Assembly: GCA_026129685.1 (NCBI GenBank)
Contig: JAHCHO010000005.1
Span: 124,001 to 188,000, forward strand
Reading direction: 5' to 3'
Source of the DNA: Fimbriimonadaceae bacterium
GTDB lineage: Bacteria; Armatimonadota; Fimbriimonadia; Fimbriimonadales; Fimbriimonadaceae
Length of the DNA stretch: 64,000 nt
Shown here: piece after piece, positions 31,995-38,983 of the stretch
Position numbering within the stretch: position 1 is the stretch's first letter
Layout: the number at the start of each line of letters is the position of its first letter
The notes under the pieces: generated by a model
Database searches by the model: none
What the model was told of the DNA's origin: nothing
What the model saw: only the letters and a program-made list of their open reading frames with translations
Position numbers and translations under genes: made by a program

Positions 31995-33401
31995 TCACAC
32001 CAGGTCGAGCCGCTGTGCCAGCCCGCTCGTGAGGAGGGCGTCGGGGTCGTAGCGCGCCTTGACCTCTCGGAATCGGGCAAGGGCCTCCTCCCCCAGGAAA
32101 GCGCTAGCGTCCTGCGGTCGGAGCGTGCTGTCCTTGGCAAAGTAGAAGCGACCCCCCGCCTCCAGCACCAAATCGTTCATGCGGTGGCACAGATTCCACA
32201 GCCGCTCCCGGTTGCCGCGCGTGACCTTGAAATCGAGCGCGAGAGAGTAGCCGTCCACCGCGTGGCGGAAGAGGAAACGATCCGGGCGATGCCGTTTGAG
32301 CACGCCCAAGTAGGACTCGAGCCGCGCCTCCTGCTGAAGGCGGACCTGGGCGGCGAACACGCGGGGCGCCTGCTCACGGGGAACGAAGCTCTGGTACTGG
32401 ATGAACCCGTACGGTTCGTACGCCTTCTGCCAGTTGGGGACGAAGTCGAGCAGGAAGGAGAAGGCGACCAGGCTCTGGTGGAGCGGCTTGCCGTCCCCGA
32501 GGACGGTGCCCGCTTTGTATTTCGCCCAGTTCAGGAAGTGCATCCCGGTGCGGTTGTTGAGCTTGCGCAACACGCGCCACACCACCGATTTGGGGAAGAA
32601 GCCGAGGATGGTGTCCGGAAGTTCTTGGTGGTCGAGACGCAGGGTGGCGGCGGCGCTCGCGTCGTCGGCCAGGTACCAGGCGGCGTGAAACGACCCGCGC
32701 CCCGCCTGCTTGCCCCGCCCGAAGCAGTCCACCCAACTCACCATGTAGTCCGCGTCCGGCTCGTACTCCTCGAAGGTGCGGAACTGCTCGTCCCAATTCC
32801 GACAGGCGACGGGCAACACCCGCACATCGCCCGAATGGACCTCCTTGAGCTTGATCCGCACGCGCACGATCGCCCCTAACAGACCCGCACCGGACACCAC
32901 CGCGTAGAAGTCGTCGTCGTCGGGCGTCAGGGTGAGGAGATCGCCGGCCGGAGTCAGCACGTCCAGATCGAGCACCTGGTCGCCCAGGGTCCCGACTCGG
33001 TAAGCGTTCTTGCCGTGGATGTTCATCCCGAGCGCGCCGCCGAGGGTCGGGGCCATCGTACCGCTCACGACCGGGGGCCAGTAGCCGTCCTCCAGGCCGA
33101 TCTTCCAGAGGTCCTGGATCGTCGCCCCCGCCTCGACGTCCAGCACTCCCGACGCGGGGTCCCAGGAGAGGACCCGCCGCATCCGTTGGCAATCGAGCAC
33201 GAGCGCCTCCGCCCCGATGTTGGCGTCGCCGTAGCTCCGGCCCGCCCCGCGCAACACCACGTGCCGACCCGTTTCTCGGGCGAGTTCGAACACCCGGCGG
33301 ACTTCGTCGACGGAGGTCGGGCGGTAGACGTAACCGTCGGCCGAAGCGGTAAAGCCAAAGCCGGAGACGCGCGCGATCCGGGCGGGATCGAGGACGGTCA
33401 C
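31995..33401 (-). CDS. dprE1: DprE1-like decaprenylphosphoryl-beta-D-ribose 2'-oxidase (FAD)
   Basis: FAD-dependent oxidase of 468 residues in the VAO/PCMH family. With DprE2 it epimerises polyprenyl-phosphoryl ribose to the arabinose form. Visible: GYVYRPTSVDEVRRVFELAR, HVVLRGAGRSYGDANIG, SGTMAPTLGGALGMNIHGKN (the HGKN block of DprE1) and FVPNWQKAYEPYGFIQYQSF, and near the end LALDFKVTRGN and FYFAKDSTLRPQ. GTG start overlaps the dprE2-like stop as GTGA. It is the third gene of ubiA-dprE2-dprE1. Fusion to other oxidases of this family is not seen. The pathway call rests on all three neighbours together. Confidence 0.87.
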   Translation of the reverse strand: MTVLDPARIARVSGFGFTASADGYVYRPTSVDEVRRVFELARETGRHVVLRGAGRSYGDANIGAEALVLDCQRMRRVLSWDPASGVLDVEAGATIQDLWKIGLEDGYWPPVVSGTMAPTLGGALGMNIHGKNAYRVGTLGDQVLDLDVLTPAGDLLTLTPDDDDFYAVVSGAGLLGAIVRVRIKLKEVHSGDVRVLPVACRNWDEQFRTFEEYEPDADYMVSWVDCFGRGKQAGRGSFHAAWYLADDASAAATLRLDHQELPDTILGFFPKSVVWRVLRKLNNRTGMHFLNWAKYKAGTVLGDGKPLHQSLVAFSFLLDFVPNWQKAYEPYGFIQYQSFVPREQAPRVFAAQVRLQQEARLESYLGVLKRHRPDRFLFRHAVDGYSLALDFKVTRGNRERLWNLCHRMNDLVLEAGGRFYFAKDSTLRPQDASAFLGEEALARFREVKARYDPDALLTSGLAQRLDLV

Positions 33402-34126
33402 ACCTTCAGCCTCCGAAAGATCGGCGATGGTATCCGCTTGATGATGTAAAAGGCGACGCGGTGGCCGAGCTTCAGGTAGTGCTCGCCCGTCTTGCCCGAC
33501 TTGGCGAGGATGCGCCGGGCGGCCTCGGCGGCGGGCATCGCACCCTTGAGGTGCAGGTGCGCCGTCATCTCCGACTGCACCGGCCCCGGCTTGATGGTCA
33601 CTACCCGCACCCCGTGCCGGGCCAAGCGGTTCCGGAGCGCCTCGAGATAGGTGGCCAGGCACGCCTTGCTCGCGTTGTACACGGGCTGGCCGCATCGGCC
33701 TCGGTCGCCCGCGACGCTGCCGATGCCCACGATCGTGCCCCGCTTCGTGTTCTCGAACCGGATCGCGGCCTGGTTCAACCAGGCGATCGCCCCCAGCACG
33801 TTGACCTCGATCATCGGGCGATCCTTGGCGAAGTCGTACTCGTGAGCGCCGACCTCGGGCATCGCGCCGCTCGCGTAGACCACGAGGTCCAAGCCGCCCA
33901 ACCGGTGGGCGATCTCCTGGAACAGCCCCGGTACGGCGTCGTAGTCGGTGACGTCGTGGGAGAACGCGAGGATGCGGTCGGGGTCTTCCGCCGCCAATTC
34001 GGCCAAACGATCGGCGCGGCGGGCGACGGCGGCGACCCGGCACCCCCGGGCGGCGAGTTGGCGGACGATCTCGCGGCCGATTCCAGAGGAGGCGCCGACG
34101 ACGATCGCGGCCCGATACTCGGTCAT
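33398..34126 (-). CDS. dprE2: DprE2-like short-chain dehydrogenase
   Basis: NAD(P)H-dependent SDR of 242 residues, expected to reduce the keto intermediate from DprE1 to polyprenyl-phosphoryl arabinose. It has the cofactor motif VVGASSGIGREIVRQLA, the NNAG-equivalent VVYASGAMPEV, catalytic Ser in IVGIGSVAGDRGR and the YxxxK motif in QPVYNASKACLATYLEAL. Further on it has VVTIKPGPVQSEM. The C-terminal amphipathic stretch (HRVAFYIIKRIPSPIFRRL) could contact the membrane, as suits a lipid-linked substrate. ATG overlaps the ubiA stop (ATGA). The operon context, not the SDR fold alone, gives the name. Confidence 0.83.
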   Translation of the reverse strand: MTEYRAAIVVGASSGIGREIVRQLAARGCRVAAVARRADRLAELAAEDPDRILAFSHDVTDYDAVPGLFQEIAHRLGGLDLVVYASGAMPEVGAHEYDFAKDRPMIEVNVLGAIAWLNQAAIRFENTKRGTIVGIGSVAGDRGRCGQPVYNASKACLATYLEALRNRLARHGVRVVTIKPGPVQSEMTAHLHLKGAMPAAEAARRILAKSGKTGEHYLKLGHRVAFYIIKRIPSPIFRRLKV

Positions 34127-35022
34127 AGCTTCTGGTACCCGTCCAGGATGGGGATGCGTAGGCCCAAAAGGGCCAGCACGGCGGTGAGGAGGAAGCCGAG
34201 GACGCTGAAAACCATGTGCGGGTCCGTGAACAAGAGGGTTTCCGGCTCGCCCCCCTCGTCGTTCGAGAACGCGAGGAACACGTAGCGGCTCACCCCGTAG
34301 AAGACGAACAGCGACGTCACGAAGAGTCCCGGGTGGGTGCGGGCGGTGTCGCTCAGGATGCTGTAGATTCCGTAGAACAGGGCTGCGCCGCAGGCCGACA
34401 TGACGACGAGCGCGTCGAGGGAGGCCCGGGAGTAGGCCTTGAGCGTCGCCCGACTCTCTTCCACCCGATCCCCCTGCAGGATGAGTTCGTGACGGCGCTT
34501 CGAGAAGCCGAGTTGGAGGGCGAGCGCCCCTGTGCAGAACAGCAGCCAGGGCGAAATGAGGGCCACGATCGCCGCCGCCCCGACCGCCGCGCGCAACACG
34601 AATCCGACGCTGATCGTGAACACGTCGGCGATCGGTAGGTGCTTCAACCGGACGTTGTACGCCAGTTGCAGAACAAGGTAGGTCGCGACGATGACGAACG
34701 TCGTCCGGTTCAGCAGGGCCGCCAACCCCAACCCTCCCGCAAGGCAGACGATCCCAACGACGACCGCGACGGGCAGTCCCAGTTGCCCGGAGGCGAGGGG
34801 CCTCTTGCGCTTAACCGGGTGCGCCCGGTCCCGCTCGATGTCCAGGACGTCGTTCAGGACGTAGACCGAGGAACTGGCCAGGCACATCGCCGCGAAGCAC
34901 AGGAGGGCGGCTTGGACCGAGGCGGGCTCCCGAAAGCGGATGGCGAACAAGAGGGCGGCGAAGACCAAGAAGTTCTTGGTCCACTGCTTCGGCCGCATCA
35001 GCCTCAGGATCGCGACGCCCAT
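34123..35022 (-). CDS. Polyprenyl-phosphate phosphoribosyltransferase (UbiA family, Rv3806c-like)
   Basis: Integral membrane prenyltransferase-fold protein of 299 residues with about eight to nine membrane segments. It should join phosphoribosyl pyrophosphate to polyprenyl phosphate, the first committed step of arabinofuranose donor synthesis. The subfamily marks are MRPKQWTKNFLVFAALLF, then YVLNDVLDIERDRAHPVKRK (first Asp-rich motif with HP-x-K-R), RPLASGQL, and the second motif region LKHLPIADVFTISVGFVLRA. These distinguish it from menaquinone or haem UbiA enzymes. First gene of the three-gene operon; CATAAT lies seven bases before the ATG. Confidence 0.88.
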   Translation of the reverse strand: MGVAILRLMRPKQWTKNFLVFAALLFAIRFREPASVQAALLCFAAMCLASSSVYVLNDVLDIERDRAHPVKRKRPLASGQLGLPVAVVVGIVCLAGGLGLAALLNRTTFVIVATYLVLQLAYNVRLKHLPIADVFTISVGFVLRAAVGAAAIVALISPWLLFCTGALALQLGFSKRRHELILQGDRVEESRATLKAYSRASLDALVVMSACGAALFYGIYSILSDTARTHPGLFVTSLFVFYGVSRYVFLAFSNDEGGEPETLLFTDPHMVFSVLGFLLTAVLALLGLRIPILDGYQKL

Positions 35023-35116: not shown

Positions 35117-36088
35117 CTAGGCGGAATCGCCGGAAGCCGGGGATACCGCTTTGGGTACGGCCCCTTGGTCGCGAACCGGGGTGGGGCGGGTCGCGCCGAA
35201 AACGACGATGCCGACGGCGAGCAACGCCACCACCAGGGTGGCCCACTTCTCGTCGCGGCTGAGCCGGAACTCGCGCAGGTTGGTCAGCATCACGCAGAAC
35301 CCGATCGGCACGAGGGCGGGAAGGGCGCCGAGGGCGACGCCGCCGATGCGGACGCTTCCGAACAGCACCACCGTCAGCAGGTAGACGATCAGGGTGGGGA
35401 CCATCCAATAGAACGCCCGCTTGGTCTGCATTTGGAACCGGAACAGGGCGATGAAGAACGCGCCTAGGAAGAGAAAGTCGGCGGGTCCGATGTACGCGAG
35501 AGGGGCGGCGGTGCCGACGCTTGGAACTTGGTACGCGACGGCCTGCAGAATCTCGGGTCGGTTCTCGACGACGTACTTCGTCGGACCGGCGGGGGTGAGG
35601 ACCAGGAAGATGTCGAAGCCGGCGAGGAAGATCGCGATCGGCAGAAGCATGTTCTTCTCGCGAATCATCGTCGCGAGGAGTCCGCCGAGGCCGAGGCACC
35701 AGGTCAGGAGACCCGCCTGGGCGAAGGCGGTGAGGAAGGCGGCGACGGGACCCTCGTTGCGAAGCAGCCCTTGGGCGGCAAAGCCGAGTCCAACGTGGAC
35801 GAGGACGCCGCCCGCGAGCAGGCCCGTGGCGAGGCGGGGCGTCCAAGCGTGGCCGGCGACCCGGAAGAGGGCGACAATCGGCACAAACACGAAGAACATC
35901 GTGACCAGCAGGCTCGCGGCGGGCACCCAGCCGAGCGGCACGGGAACCAATCCGAGGACGACGCGCAGGACCGCCAACATCGCCAGCACGCTGAAGAAGA
36001 GGGCCAAGCGACGGGTGTCGGCGTGCGACCGAGACGAATGATAGGGATCGATGCCGATTACCTCAAAGGACGGCGACCCGCCCTTCAC
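35117..36088 (-). CDS. Presenilin/signal-peptide-peptidase-like membrane protein (candidate A22 aspartyl protease)
   Basis: Polytopic membrane protein of about 323 residues with roughly nine hydrophobic segments. Three short motifs appear in the order and spacing known from presenilin-like proteases. An Asp in LPIAIFLAGFDIFLVLTP corresponds to the YD motif. About 45 residues later an Asp in LAYIGPADFLFLGAFF corresponds to GxGD (here GPAD). Then PAL appears in LGALPALVPIGFC. The last Gly of GxGD is Ala, so activity is uncertain. This is inference from motifs; no substrate is visible. I chose the GTG at 36086-36088, which overlaps the end of the GT4 gene by 26 bases; an ATG at 36142 would add 18 residues. 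Confidence 0.5.
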   Translation of the reverse strand: MKGGSPSFEVIGIDPYHSSRSHADTRRLALFFSVLAMLAVLRVVLGLVPVPLGWVPAASLLVTMFFVFVPIVALFRVAGHAWTPRLATGLLAGGVLVHVGLGFAAQGLLRNEGPVAAFLTAFAQAGLLTWCLGLGGLLATMIREKNMLLPIAIFLAGFDIFLVLTPAGPTKYVVENRPEILQAVAYQVPSVGTAAPLAYIGPADFLFLGAFFIALFRFQMQTKRAFYWMVPTLIVYLLTVVLFGSVRIGGVALGALPALVPIGFCVMLTNLREFRLSRDEKWATLVVALLAVGIVVFGATRPTPVRDQGAVPKAVSPASGDSA

Positions 36089-37253
36089 GTAGCGCAGCCG
36101 CTTTCCGCTCCAGAACCAAACGATAGACGTCCACAACAGCATGGGTCATACCCGCAATAGTGCTAGTGGATCGTACAGACCGGGCGGCGGCCTCGGAAGT
36201 CCTCGTATATAGGGATTCGTCGTTCAGGAGGCGGAGGGCGTGTTCGGCAAGATCGCTCGGTTCGTTCTTGGTCACAAAGCCGTTGACCTCGTTTACGACG
36301 TTCGCGCTCGCCCCTCCCCCGGCGGCGACGACGGCGGGCAAGCCGTAGGTCATCGCCTCTTGCACGACGAGGCCCTGAGTCTCCGTGATCGAGGCGAACA
36401 CGAACAGGTCGGCGGCCGCGTAATAGCGGTCCACCTCGGCGCGGGGGACGAAGCCGACGAATCGAACCCGATCGCCGATGCCCATCTCGCGCGCGAGCGT
36501 GGAGCATTCCGCGTAGTAAGGGCCGTCGCCGACGAGCCAGAGCCGCAGATTGGGGTCCTGGCGGAAAGCGATGGCGGCCGCTTCGAGCAGGGTGTCGAGG
36601 TTCTTCTCGCGGGCGATACGGCCGACGTAGAGCAGGATGCGCTGCTCGGGAGGAATTCCAAGGTCGCGGCGGGCCTCGCTCCGAACGAGGAGTTTGCGGG
36701 GCGGGGTGCCGGTCGGAATCACGGTAACGGGGGTGCTCACCGAGTGACGTTGGAGCCAGCGCTTGGCGGCTTCGCTCGGCGTGATGGCGTGGTCGCAACG
36801 GTTGTAGTAGAAGTTGGTGTGCTTGGCGATCTTGTAGCGGACGTACCGGCGCGGGAAGTACGGTATGTAGTGGGCGTAGCGGTCGTAAAGCGTGTGGTAG
36901 GTGGAGACGAGCGGGATCTCGTGCGACTGGGCCCACCGCAGGCCGACGAAGCCGATCGTGTACGGCGTATGGGTGTGGATCACATCGAACGCGTGCTTGC
37001 GGAACTTGCGAAGCATGCCGAGGAAGGGAGGAAAGGCGAGGGGGTAGCCCTTCGTCCACGGGGTCTCCATCGCCCAGAACCGATAGGTGTTCGGGTCGTT
37101 GTCGCGGTGGCCAGGGAAACCGGCGGTGAAGAGGTGGACACTGTGGCCCTGGTTCCTGAGTTCGGCGACGAGGGCGTCGATGCTGATACTCACCCCATTG
37201 AGGATGGGGAGGGCGCTGTCCGAGAACATCGCGATCCGGAGGCGCTCGCTCAC
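36063..37253 (-). CDS. Glycosyltransferase family 4 protein (lipid glycosyltransferase-like)
   Basis: GT-B glycosyltransferase of 396 residues. The N-terminal acceptor domain has RIAMFSDSALPILNGVSISI and FDVIHTHTPYTIGFVGLRWA, then PLVSTYHTLYDRYAHYIPY. This resembles enzymes that glycosylate diacylglycerol or phosphatidylinositol. The donor domain has LLYVGRIAREKNLDTLLEA, LWLVGDGPYYAEC, FVGFVPRAEVDRYYAAADLF and the E-x7-E motif ASITETQGLVVQEAMTYGLP. It is likely membrane-associated and adds a sugar to a lipid. It sits between the BldC-like regulator (12 bases upstream) and the presenilin-like gene (overlapping), so the three probably form one operon. Confidence 0.88.
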   Translation of the reverse strand: MSERLRIAMFSDSALPILNGVSISIDALVAELRNQGHSVHLFTAGFPGHRDNDPNTYRFWAMETPWTKGYPLAFPPFLGMLRKFRKHAFDVIHTHTPYTIGFVGLRWAQSHEIPLVSTYHTLYDRYAHYIPYFPRRYVRYKIAKHTNFYYNRCDHAITPSEAAKRWLQRHSVSTPVTVIPTGTPPRKLLVRSEARRDLGIPPEQRILLYVGRIAREKNLDTLLEAAAIAFRQDPNLRLWLVGDGPYYAECSTLAREMGIGDRVRFVGFVPRAEVDRYYAAADLFVFASITETQGLVVQEAMTYGLPAVVAAGGGASANVVNEVNGFVTKNEPSDLAEHALRLLNDESLYTRTSEAAARSVRSTSTIAGMTHAVVDVYRLVLERKAAALREGRVAVL

Positions 37254-37265
37254 CGCTTCAGAGAG

Positions 37266-37808
37266 TTACTCCTCCGGGAGTCGTCCGTGCTTGTCCACGA
37301 AGGCGATCACGTCGGTAAGGCGGAAACGCCGTTGCCCGCCGTGGGTTCGGTGGTGCGCGAGCCATCCCCGGTTCGTGTAACGTCGGATCGTGGCGGGGCA
37401 GACTCCGAGCAACCGGCTCGTCTCCTCCAAGCTCAGTTCGGGGTCGAGAAGGCGCTTGATGAGGTCGTTGCGACTCTCCTTGAACTCGCCGCCGTAGTAG
37501 TTCGAGGTCACGTCGTCGTCAAAGTAGGAGACGAGGAACTCGATGTGCCGGGGGAGGGCCTCCCACATCGTGCGGAGCTCCGGGTCGATCGGGTTGTTGA
37601 CCGCCGATTCGCGCGCGCGGCGCGGGCGAGGCGCGCTCATCTCGGTCTTTCGGAACTTGCCGCGCTTCTCGGTGGGCAGGGCCATCCGGCGCGTCTTCTT
37701 GGCGACGACGGGATCGGCGTCGGCGGGGGCGTCTTTGGGCGCGGCAGCGGGAATGTCGAGAAACGCGCTCTCGATGTACGCGATCGGGTCGAACTTCGTG
37801 TTCTTCAA
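37266..37808 (-). CDS. BldC-like MerR-type helix-turn-helix regulator with disordered N-terminus
   Basis: Protein of 180 residues. The C-terminal 60 form a MerR/BldC-type DNA-binding domain: LSLEETSRLLGVCPATIRRY, then TNRGWLAHHRTHGGQRRFRL and DVIAFVDKHGRLPEE. No effector-binding domain follows, as in BldC. The N-terminal two thirds are rich in Ala, Pro, Lys and Arg with a charged patch (KKTRRMALPTEKRGKFRK). I place the start at a TTG (37806-37808) with GAGGACAGG just upstream; it begins KNTKFDPIAYIESAFLD. It precedes the GT4 and presenilin-like genes and may control them or be co-regulated. Confidence 0.72.
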   Translation of the reverse strand: MKNTKFDPIAYIESAFLDIPAAAPKDAPADADPVVAKKTRRMALPTEKRGKFRKTEMSAPRPRRARESAVNNPIDPELRTMWEALPRHIEFLVSYFDDDVTSNYYGGEFKESRNDLIKRLLDPELSLEETSRLLGVCPATIRRYTNRGWLAHHRTHGGQRRFRLTDVIAFVDKHGRLPEE

Positions 37809-37926
37809 GCCTGTCCTCAAGGGCGTGTTCGATGCGGCGCGCTCGCACCGCTTCCCGGGTCGTGGACGAAGCACGGGAGAGGCCGCCGCAACCCCAATGC
37901 GGGCCGGCCCATCGAAGACGGGTCTG

Positions 37927-37966: not shown

Positions 37967-38983
37967 TCAAAGGATGAGCATTGAGTCGCCGAAGCTCAGG
38001 AATCGGTATTCCCGGTTCAACGCCTCATGGTAGGCGTCGAGAAGGCGCTCGCGCCCGACCATCGCGGCGAGCATGACGAGCATCGAGGTGCGCGGCATGT
38101 GGAAGTTGGTGAACATGCCGTCCACGACCCGGAACGCGAACCCCGGACGGATGAACAGCCGGCTCTCCATCGTGCCCGACGCGAGACGGCGCGGGCCGGC
38201 GGCGAACGACTCGAGGGTCCGGACGGTCGTCGTTCCGACGGCGACGATCCGTCCCCGGCAGCCGGCGACCGCTTCGGCGGTCTCTTCGGGAACGGAACAG
38301 GTCTCCCCGTGCATCTGATGGTGGGCAAGGTCGTCGGCCTGGATCGGGCGAAATGTGTCAAGCCCGACCTCGAGCCGGACCCTCGCGGCCTCAACCCCTT
38401 TGGCCGAAAGCCGGGCAAGGAGTTCGGGGGTGAAGTGGAGGCCGGCGGTGGGGGCGGCGGAGCTCTGGCCGTCCGCCGCGTACACCGTCTGGTAGCGCGA
38501 GGCGTCGCGGAGTTGCGGGCCGATGTAAGGGGGGAGGGGGGCGAACGAAGCCGATTCCAAAGCGCTCGGATCGAGCGGCGCGCCGAAGTTCAGCACGCGC
38601 CGCCCGCCTCCGAGATGGCTCTCCACCGCCGCCACCAAGCCCTGCTCGAATCGAACGCGCGTCCCGTCCGGCAGCTTCCGCCCGGGCTTGACAAGGGCTT
38701 CGAAGCGGCCCTCGCCCAGGTCCTTGAGAAGCAGGGCCTCGACCCTGGCGCCGGTCTCCTTGTGGCCGAAGAGACGGCGGGCGGCGACACGGGTGTCGTT
38801 CAAGACGAGAAGGTCGCCGGGTGCAAGGATTTCGAGGACGTCGCGAAAGGTGCGGTGAAGGGGCTGGCCGCCGACGCGCGGTAGCCAGAGGAGCCGCGAC
38901 GCCGCCCGGTCCTCGAGGGGGTACTGGGCGATGCGGGCCTTCGGGAGGTCGTAGTCGTAGGCGTCGAGACGTTCGTCGGTCAC
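37967..38983 (-). CDS. queA: S-adenosylmethionine:tRNA ribosyltransferase-isomerase
   Basis: Makes epoxyqueuosine in tRNA by transferring and rearranging the ribose of S-adenosylmethionine onto 7-aminomethyl-7-deazaguanine. 338 residues, the family norm. Blocks: YDYDLPKARIAQYPLEDRAA, LVLNDTRVAARRLFGHKETG, SSAAPTAGLHFTPELLARL, VGTTTVRTLESFA and TNFHMPRTSMLVMLAAMVGR. All are typical. The GTG at 38981-38983 lies eight bases after CACAAT. No other queuosine gene adjoins it. With mnmG it is one of two tRNA-modification genes in the window. Confidence 0.95.
   Translation of the reverse strand: MTDERLDAYDYDLPKARIAQYPLEDRAASRLLWLPRVGGQPLHRTFRDVLEILAPGDLLVLNDTRVAARRLFGHKETGARVEALLLKDLGEGRFEALVKPGRKLPDGTRVRFEQGLVAAVESHLGGGRRVLNFGAPLDPSALESASFAPLPPYIGPQLRDASRYQTVYAADGQSSAAPTAGLHFTPELLARLSAKGVEAARVRLEVGLDTFRPIQADDLAHHQMHGETCSVPEETAEAVAGCRGRIVAVGTTTVRTLESFAAGPRRLASGTMESRLFIRPGFAFRVVDGMFTNFHMPRTSMLVMLAAMVGRERLLDAYHEALNREYRFLSFGDSMLIL

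Follow-up and report, generated by a model that had tools for sequence, protein, structure and literature searches.

The stretch of DNA analysed here (64,000 nucleotides; hereafter the window) carries, at 35117-36142 on the minus strand, a gene for a membrane protein that very likely represents a divergent bacterial branch of the presenilin/SPP (GxGD) fold. A sequence-only reading had proposed a bacterial presenilin/SPP-like protein, and this core claim is supported by an Asp pair that is invariant (100/100) and by fold searches. The family, its invariant residues and a presenilin-like predicted fold come from computation; activity, orientation and substrate class we infer. Judged by its conserved residues, the protein is probably an active protease. 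Our preferred reading, which we regard as likely, is a divergent bacterial GxGD branch whose members would most likely be active aspartyl intramembrane proteases, oriented like SPP and cleaving N-in/C-out helices.

Reading frame and conserved residues

The proposed reading frame of 341 amino acids was recovered on the minus strand, and GFDIF, GPAD and LPALVP occurred in the order claimed, with spacings of 45 and 53 residues. The features of the gene are:

35117-36142 (-): presenilin/SPP-like membrane protein, 341 aa from ATG 36142; the start is possibly GTG 36088 or TTG 36007
35177-36028 (-): nine-helix conserved core, residues 39-322 (AlphaFold model and family alignment)
35597-35656 (-): helix 163-182, equivalent to presenilin TM6, bearing D177 (model and alignments)
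35612-35614 (-): D177, first putative catalytic Asp (invariant, 100/100)
35438-35485 (-): helix 220-235, equivalent to presenilin TM7, beginning at the GxGD-like motif (model and profile alignment)
35477-35488 (-): GPAD (GxGD-like), G219-D222, with D222 the second putative catalytic Asp (G219 and D222 100/100)
35306-35323 (-): LPALVP (PAL motif), residues 274-279 (P275 97/100)
35279-35281 (-): N288, just past the PAL helix, on the predicted cytoplasmic side (conserved 95/100)
35249-35251 (-): E298, at the start of the last helix, on the predicted cytoplasmic side (invariant, 100/100)

The nine membrane segments anticipated from the sequence correspond to nine long helices in the AlphaFold model (residues 39-65, 70-96, 102-126, 132-159, 163-182, 220-235, 240-261, 277-287 and 296-318). 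The annotated N-terminus, comprising the first ∼ 38 residues of the 341-residue frame, is poorly supported, because most relatives start nearer residue 40 (8-35 residues ahead of window residue 51) and residues 1-38 were modelled at low confidence (pLDDT 48-58). Candidate start codons are ATG 36142, GTG 36088 and TTG 36007. The peptide MLLWTSIVWFW, common to the genus, falls inside the overlap with the adjoining glycosyltransferase (GT4) gene.

The window comes from an Armatimonadota genome, and the close relatives of its locus are Fimbriimonadaceae and other Armatimonadota. Conservation was assessed in 100 homologues, 50 from the window's order and 50 from the remaining phylum. D177, G219, D222 and E298 were invariant throughout, so that neither Asp was replaced in any relative, and the Pro of PAL was kept in 97 of 100. 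The A22 motif reading made from the sequence holds. Among the 49 most divergent members (set A4), invariance was confined to four columns: both Asp, the Glu and the leading Gly of GxGD. D177 and D222 lie in neighbouring helices of the predicted model (163-182 and 220-235), as in the superfamily, and PAL sits in the helix after next from the second Asp, as in presenilin and SPP. The Tyr of the YD motif before the first Asp is absent; of the 100 homologues, position 176 was V in 36, F in 27 (as in the window protein), I in 15, A in 10 and L in 4. This and the window's GPAD speak against the superfamily assignment. E298 varies no more than the catalytic Asp residues do and has no known counterpart among presenilin motifs.

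It had been suggested that GPAD could mean a loss of activity. At position 221, 53 of the 100 homologues had Ala (GxAD) and the other 47 Gly (GxGD), and Ala occupied the second Gly of GxGD throughout the window's own family. Since the tree requires only three Ala/Gly switches at this position, GxAD is an old clade trait rather than scattered decay. Many independent origins of GPAD were considered and rejected on the same tree. Gly-to-Ala changes in MCMJR1 (G219A), SPPL2b and presenilin give slower enzymes that keep their activity (PMC2947513), and the PSEN1 mutation G384A, known from the clinic, goes with a strong rise in Abeta42 (PMC2405781). Decay through GPAD is therefore unlikely. Because the family admits only Gly or Ala at position 221, the restriction would fit a working GxGD site. 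The Ala common to the window's GPAD clade could also be read as the mark of an inactive pseudoprotease, retained as a membrane chaperone or scaffold. We consider this quite improbable, however, since none of the 100 sequences has lost the Asp pair and MCMJR1, SPPL2b and presenilin remain active, if slower, with the substitution (PMC2947513; PMC2405781).

Sequence links and predicted fold

Single sequences gave no significant link to known families. A phmmer search of the PDB with the window protein found no match, and hmmsearch of profile A1 (a 47-row alignment) against the PDB gave weak, unrelated matches only. The window protein scored 10.4 bits against PF01080 (Presenilin), below the gathering cut-off of 34.3; every Pfam score of single family members was below cut-off, PF04258 was unmatched and an NCBIfam scan of the window protein returned nothing over cut-off. 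PF06550 (archaeal SPP/PSH) was found in 0/291 Armatimonadota genomes, with Haloferax and Methanosarcina controls positive. The models of A24 prepilin peptidases were unmatched in 96 members (Pfam scans, 47 + 49). The family is thus formally outside every existing Pfam family of the presenilin/SPP group. One EXS match in Pfam (17.5 of 25 bits) was discarded: it covered residues 1-112 only, was below cut-off and occurred in 1/47 members.

The profile of the divergent set, A4, gave a single match among PDB sequences up to E 10, which was presenilin-1 (E 0.0047), with GxGD and PAL(P) in register; none of 2000 shuffles scored as high. With profiles A1 and all-100, the whole-sequence score against PSEN1 was no better than that of shuffles, and the best local alignments fell on the same motifs. 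With a PSEN1 query identical to 5a63_B, hhalign placed D177 on D257 in an alignment of 29 residues at 34% identity, scoring 28.7 where the best of 30 shuffles reached 20.4. D177 is followed by a presenilin-like P-x-G-P-x-[KR]-x3-E.

The AlphaFold2 model of the window protein, built with the A1 alignment, had a pLDDT of 88.5 and a pTM of 0.84. Foldseek ranks 1-10 in the PDB were all presenilin-1 chains (probability 0.95-1.00), with E-values of 0.016-0.11 that miss 0.001 and low TM-scores (0.36). VIA-align superposed the model on PSEN1 (6idf) over 187 residues (rmsd 2.7 Å, 20% identity), and a second, truncated model (A3), of a divergent GxGD member from another family, gave Foldseek ranks 1-6 for presenilin-1 and only GxGD proteases at VIA ranks 1-20; the Z-scores, 13.5 for the window model and up to 10.4 for the second, are close to the level that the tool flags for helical bundles. 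For the window model, SPPL2a followed at Z 12.0 and archaeal PSH (4y6k) at Z 9.7; rows 1-19 held GxGD proteases throughout, and the best unrelated chain had a Z of 7.9 over 59 residues. Presenilin-1, SPPL2a and archaeal PSH outrank everything else, and the second, divergent member agrees. Both models share the presenilin fold in the core helices only, and the helix complement differs. In both, the aligned range starts where the second bacterial helix meets PSEN1 TM1. The family thus appears, on these models, to place two helices, where presenilin has four, between the TM1 counterpart and the Asp helix, and to carry an additional helix at either end; this follows from alignment ranges, which are not a residue-level superposition.

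The lack of a significant Pfam or PDB match in single-sequence searches might be taken to mean that the motifs arose by chance in an ordinary membrane protein, or that this is a GxGD enzyme of the prepilin-peptidase type (A24). Such readings are hardly credible in view of the invariant Asp residues, the two independent models that match presenilin, the only profile match in the PDB being presenilin, and the 0/96 scanned members that match A24 models.

Distribution, gene neighbourhood and orientation

A single-protein search found a homologue in 59/61 close genomes. Profile A1 matched 268/291 Armatimonadota genomes and 186/194 of those of good quality, with best E-values within the phylum down to 6e-117. 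Five near-complete genomes, G030, G159 (1.5 Mb, 97% complete) and G205-G207, showed no gene with profile A1, and are possibly reduced lineages; G205 gave only E 0.001 with profile A4. Duplications were also seen, as a tandem pair in G081 (G081:C1:5630803-5632596) and as two copies on separate contigs in each of G067 and G063. No plasmid homologues were found by tblastn. Outside Armatimonadota, about 106 genomes were sampled, and homologues were real in two of these (G304 and G305), with GLGD or GMGD and PGIP/PALP. The outside-phylum loci bearing canonical GLGD/GMGD are L175 and L178 (G304, G397) and L176 (G305); in the phylum of G304 the gene was present in 3/3 genomes examined. The sole Pfam match of the G305 protein was Presenilin (PF01080; 17.2 bits, E 0.0024, under cut-off). 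A weak match in G387 (E 0.006) was a false positive, the sequence being a polysaccharide polymerase-like protein.

The overlap with a GT4 gene lying behind an HTH gene, noted in the earlier reading, was confirmed. The neighbours are:

36063-37253 (-): GT4-family glycosyltransferase, directly upstream, frames overlapping (Pfam PF00534/PF13439; 27/37 loci)
37266-37874 (-): HTH_17/MerR-like (BldC-like) DNA-binding protein, a conserved neighbour (25/37 loci)
37967-38983 (-): QueA-like gene, named from sequence alone, at the upstream end of the conserved run (23/37 loci)

The run QueA-like gene, HTH gene, GT4 gene and presenilin-like gene (clusters in 23, 25, 27 and 37 of 37 loci) is conserved in most Fimbriimonadaceae. 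In another family of the order (L130, L133 and L135) the presenilin-like gene is retained among different neighbours, and the glycosyltransferase linkage is therefore not the core function. Of the proposed BldC-like regulator, the HTH gene stands, and the NCBIfam BldC match lies below cut-off (30.3 vs 77 bits). The suggestion of a regulated lipid or surface system is weakened: HTH-GT4 linkage holds in Fimbriimonadaceae only, and the match of the GT4 protein to a lipid-acceptor model lies below cut-off (167.8 vs 400 bits). On the other side, at 31995-35022 (-), three adjacent genes suggest an arabinose-lipid precursor pathway, each with a match below its equivalog cut-off: one for a DprE1-like oxidase (270.5 vs 500 bits, NCBIfam), one for an SDR resembling DprE2 (99 vs 250 bits) and one like UbiA/decaprenyl-phosphate phosphoribosyltransferase (218 vs 234 bits).

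The neighbourhood allows for an enzyme of presenilin fold with another chemistry, whose substrate might be, for instance, a lipid or glycolipid product of the GT4 protein and which would use both Asp residues, Glu298 and Asn288. E298 and N288 are conserved outside the known presenilin motifs, and the GT4 overlap in Fimbriimonadaceae would suit it. We judge it improbable, however, because the Gly/Ala restriction in GxGD and the conservation of PAL are specific to the protease site, and GT4 linkage is not phylum-wide.

Other membrane proteases were also surveyed. SppA (S49) over cut-off was found in 0/31 close relatives (controls 10/14) and in 110/291 genomes of the phylum, usually alongside the presenilin-like gene. 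Though common in the rest of the phylum, it is missing from nearly all of Fimbriimonadales; the exceptions are G130, G131 and G143, which belong to a single genus. M50 proteases were present in 31/31 close relatives. A simple replacement of SppA by the presenilin-like gene is unsupported, as the two co-occur in much of the phylum.

Membrane orientation was judged from the number of K+R residues per loop over 70 sequences. Loops B-C (1.91), D-E (2.01), F-G (2.81) and H-I (2.97) were richer than the opposite loops A-B (0.46), C-D (1.14) and G-H (0.46). By the positive-inside rule this pattern favours a predicted topology in which the N-terminus is inside and the Asp loop outside, the arrangement of SPP and the reverse of presenilin's; the call is not clean, given that the long Asp loop E-F carries 2.99 K+R over 42 residues and is thus not charge-poor. 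A presenilin orientation would keep the same fold and chemistry with the site facing the cytoplasm, and would imply type I cleavage and signalling linked to the regulator and the GT4 protein. Although it accords with the presenilin-like sequence after D177 and with the HTH-GT4 linkage kept in Fimbriimonadaceae, we think it unlikely: the charges of the short loops favour N-in with the Asp loop outside, and beyond Fimbriimonadaceae the linkage is lost and the gene retained.

In the SPP-like orientation that we prefer, D177 and D222 would hold a water molecule between their neighbouring helices within the membrane, and a substrate helix would enter beside the PAL loop and then be cut. The extra N-terminal helix, with a cytoplasmic N-terminus, would turn the core round relative to presenilin, and, as in SPP, the active site would open to the periplasmic side. 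SPP has the reverse orientation to presenilin, and its substrates are type II proteins (PMC7768045). An enzyme in the same orientation may therefore act on type II (N-in/C-out) helices, possibly leftover signal peptides and short membrane anchors, in a housekeeping role. More tentatively, the details may combine into a further presenilin/SPP branch, fixed in the phylum and present in at least two neighbouring bacterial lineages, with SPP orientation, a smaller number of helices separating TM1 from the Asp helix and a GxAD clade (equivalent to G384A), that serves as a housekeeping signal-peptide peptidase.

Comparison with known systems

Presenilin and SPP have been described as eukaryotic and archaeal (PMC2947513, PMC9282858). 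We found neither a bacterial presenilin family nor a mention of Armatimonadota with presenilin in the literature searched, which did not extend to subscription papers or MEROPS, so that prior notice is possible. The "bacterial polytopic aspartyl proteases" of Steiner 2000 are reportedly prepilin peptidases.

Presenilin (MEROPS A22A; human PSEN1, gamma-secretase) is the best structural match (Z 13.5), with GxGD and PAL in register and the D177 region 34% identical to that of D257. Unlike presenilin, the bacterial family is predicted to be inverted, has no Tyr before the first Asp and gives no indication of the long endoproteolysis loop that joins TM6 and TM7. A bacterial branch that belongs to the core genome is relevant to how gamma-secretase arose. 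With SPP/SPPL (A22B) the family has in common the fold (SPPL2a Z 12.0) and the predicted orientation, and PF04258 is unmatched. We take the sequence after the first Asp to be nearer presenilin than SPP. Archaeal PSH/MCMJR1 (PF06550) is likewise a prokaryotic GxGD protease of similar size (Z 9.7 to 4y6k), from which the bacterial family differs as a separate, far more divergent branch. The MCMJR1 G219A mutant, slower but active, mimics the natural GxAD of the family (PMC2947513). Because Gly and Ala vary naturally at a familial-Alzheimer site (G384A), the effects of that change could be examined in enzymes adapted to it by evolution. The family also offers small enzymes without known partner subunits, a possible bacterial model for intramembrane protein cutting. 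Finally, it raises the question of what role a signal-peptide peptidase other than SppA plays in bacteria. Bacterial SppA (S49) and RseP (M50) would share with the family an overlapping job, the clearing of signal-peptide remnants, with unrelated folds and chemistry.
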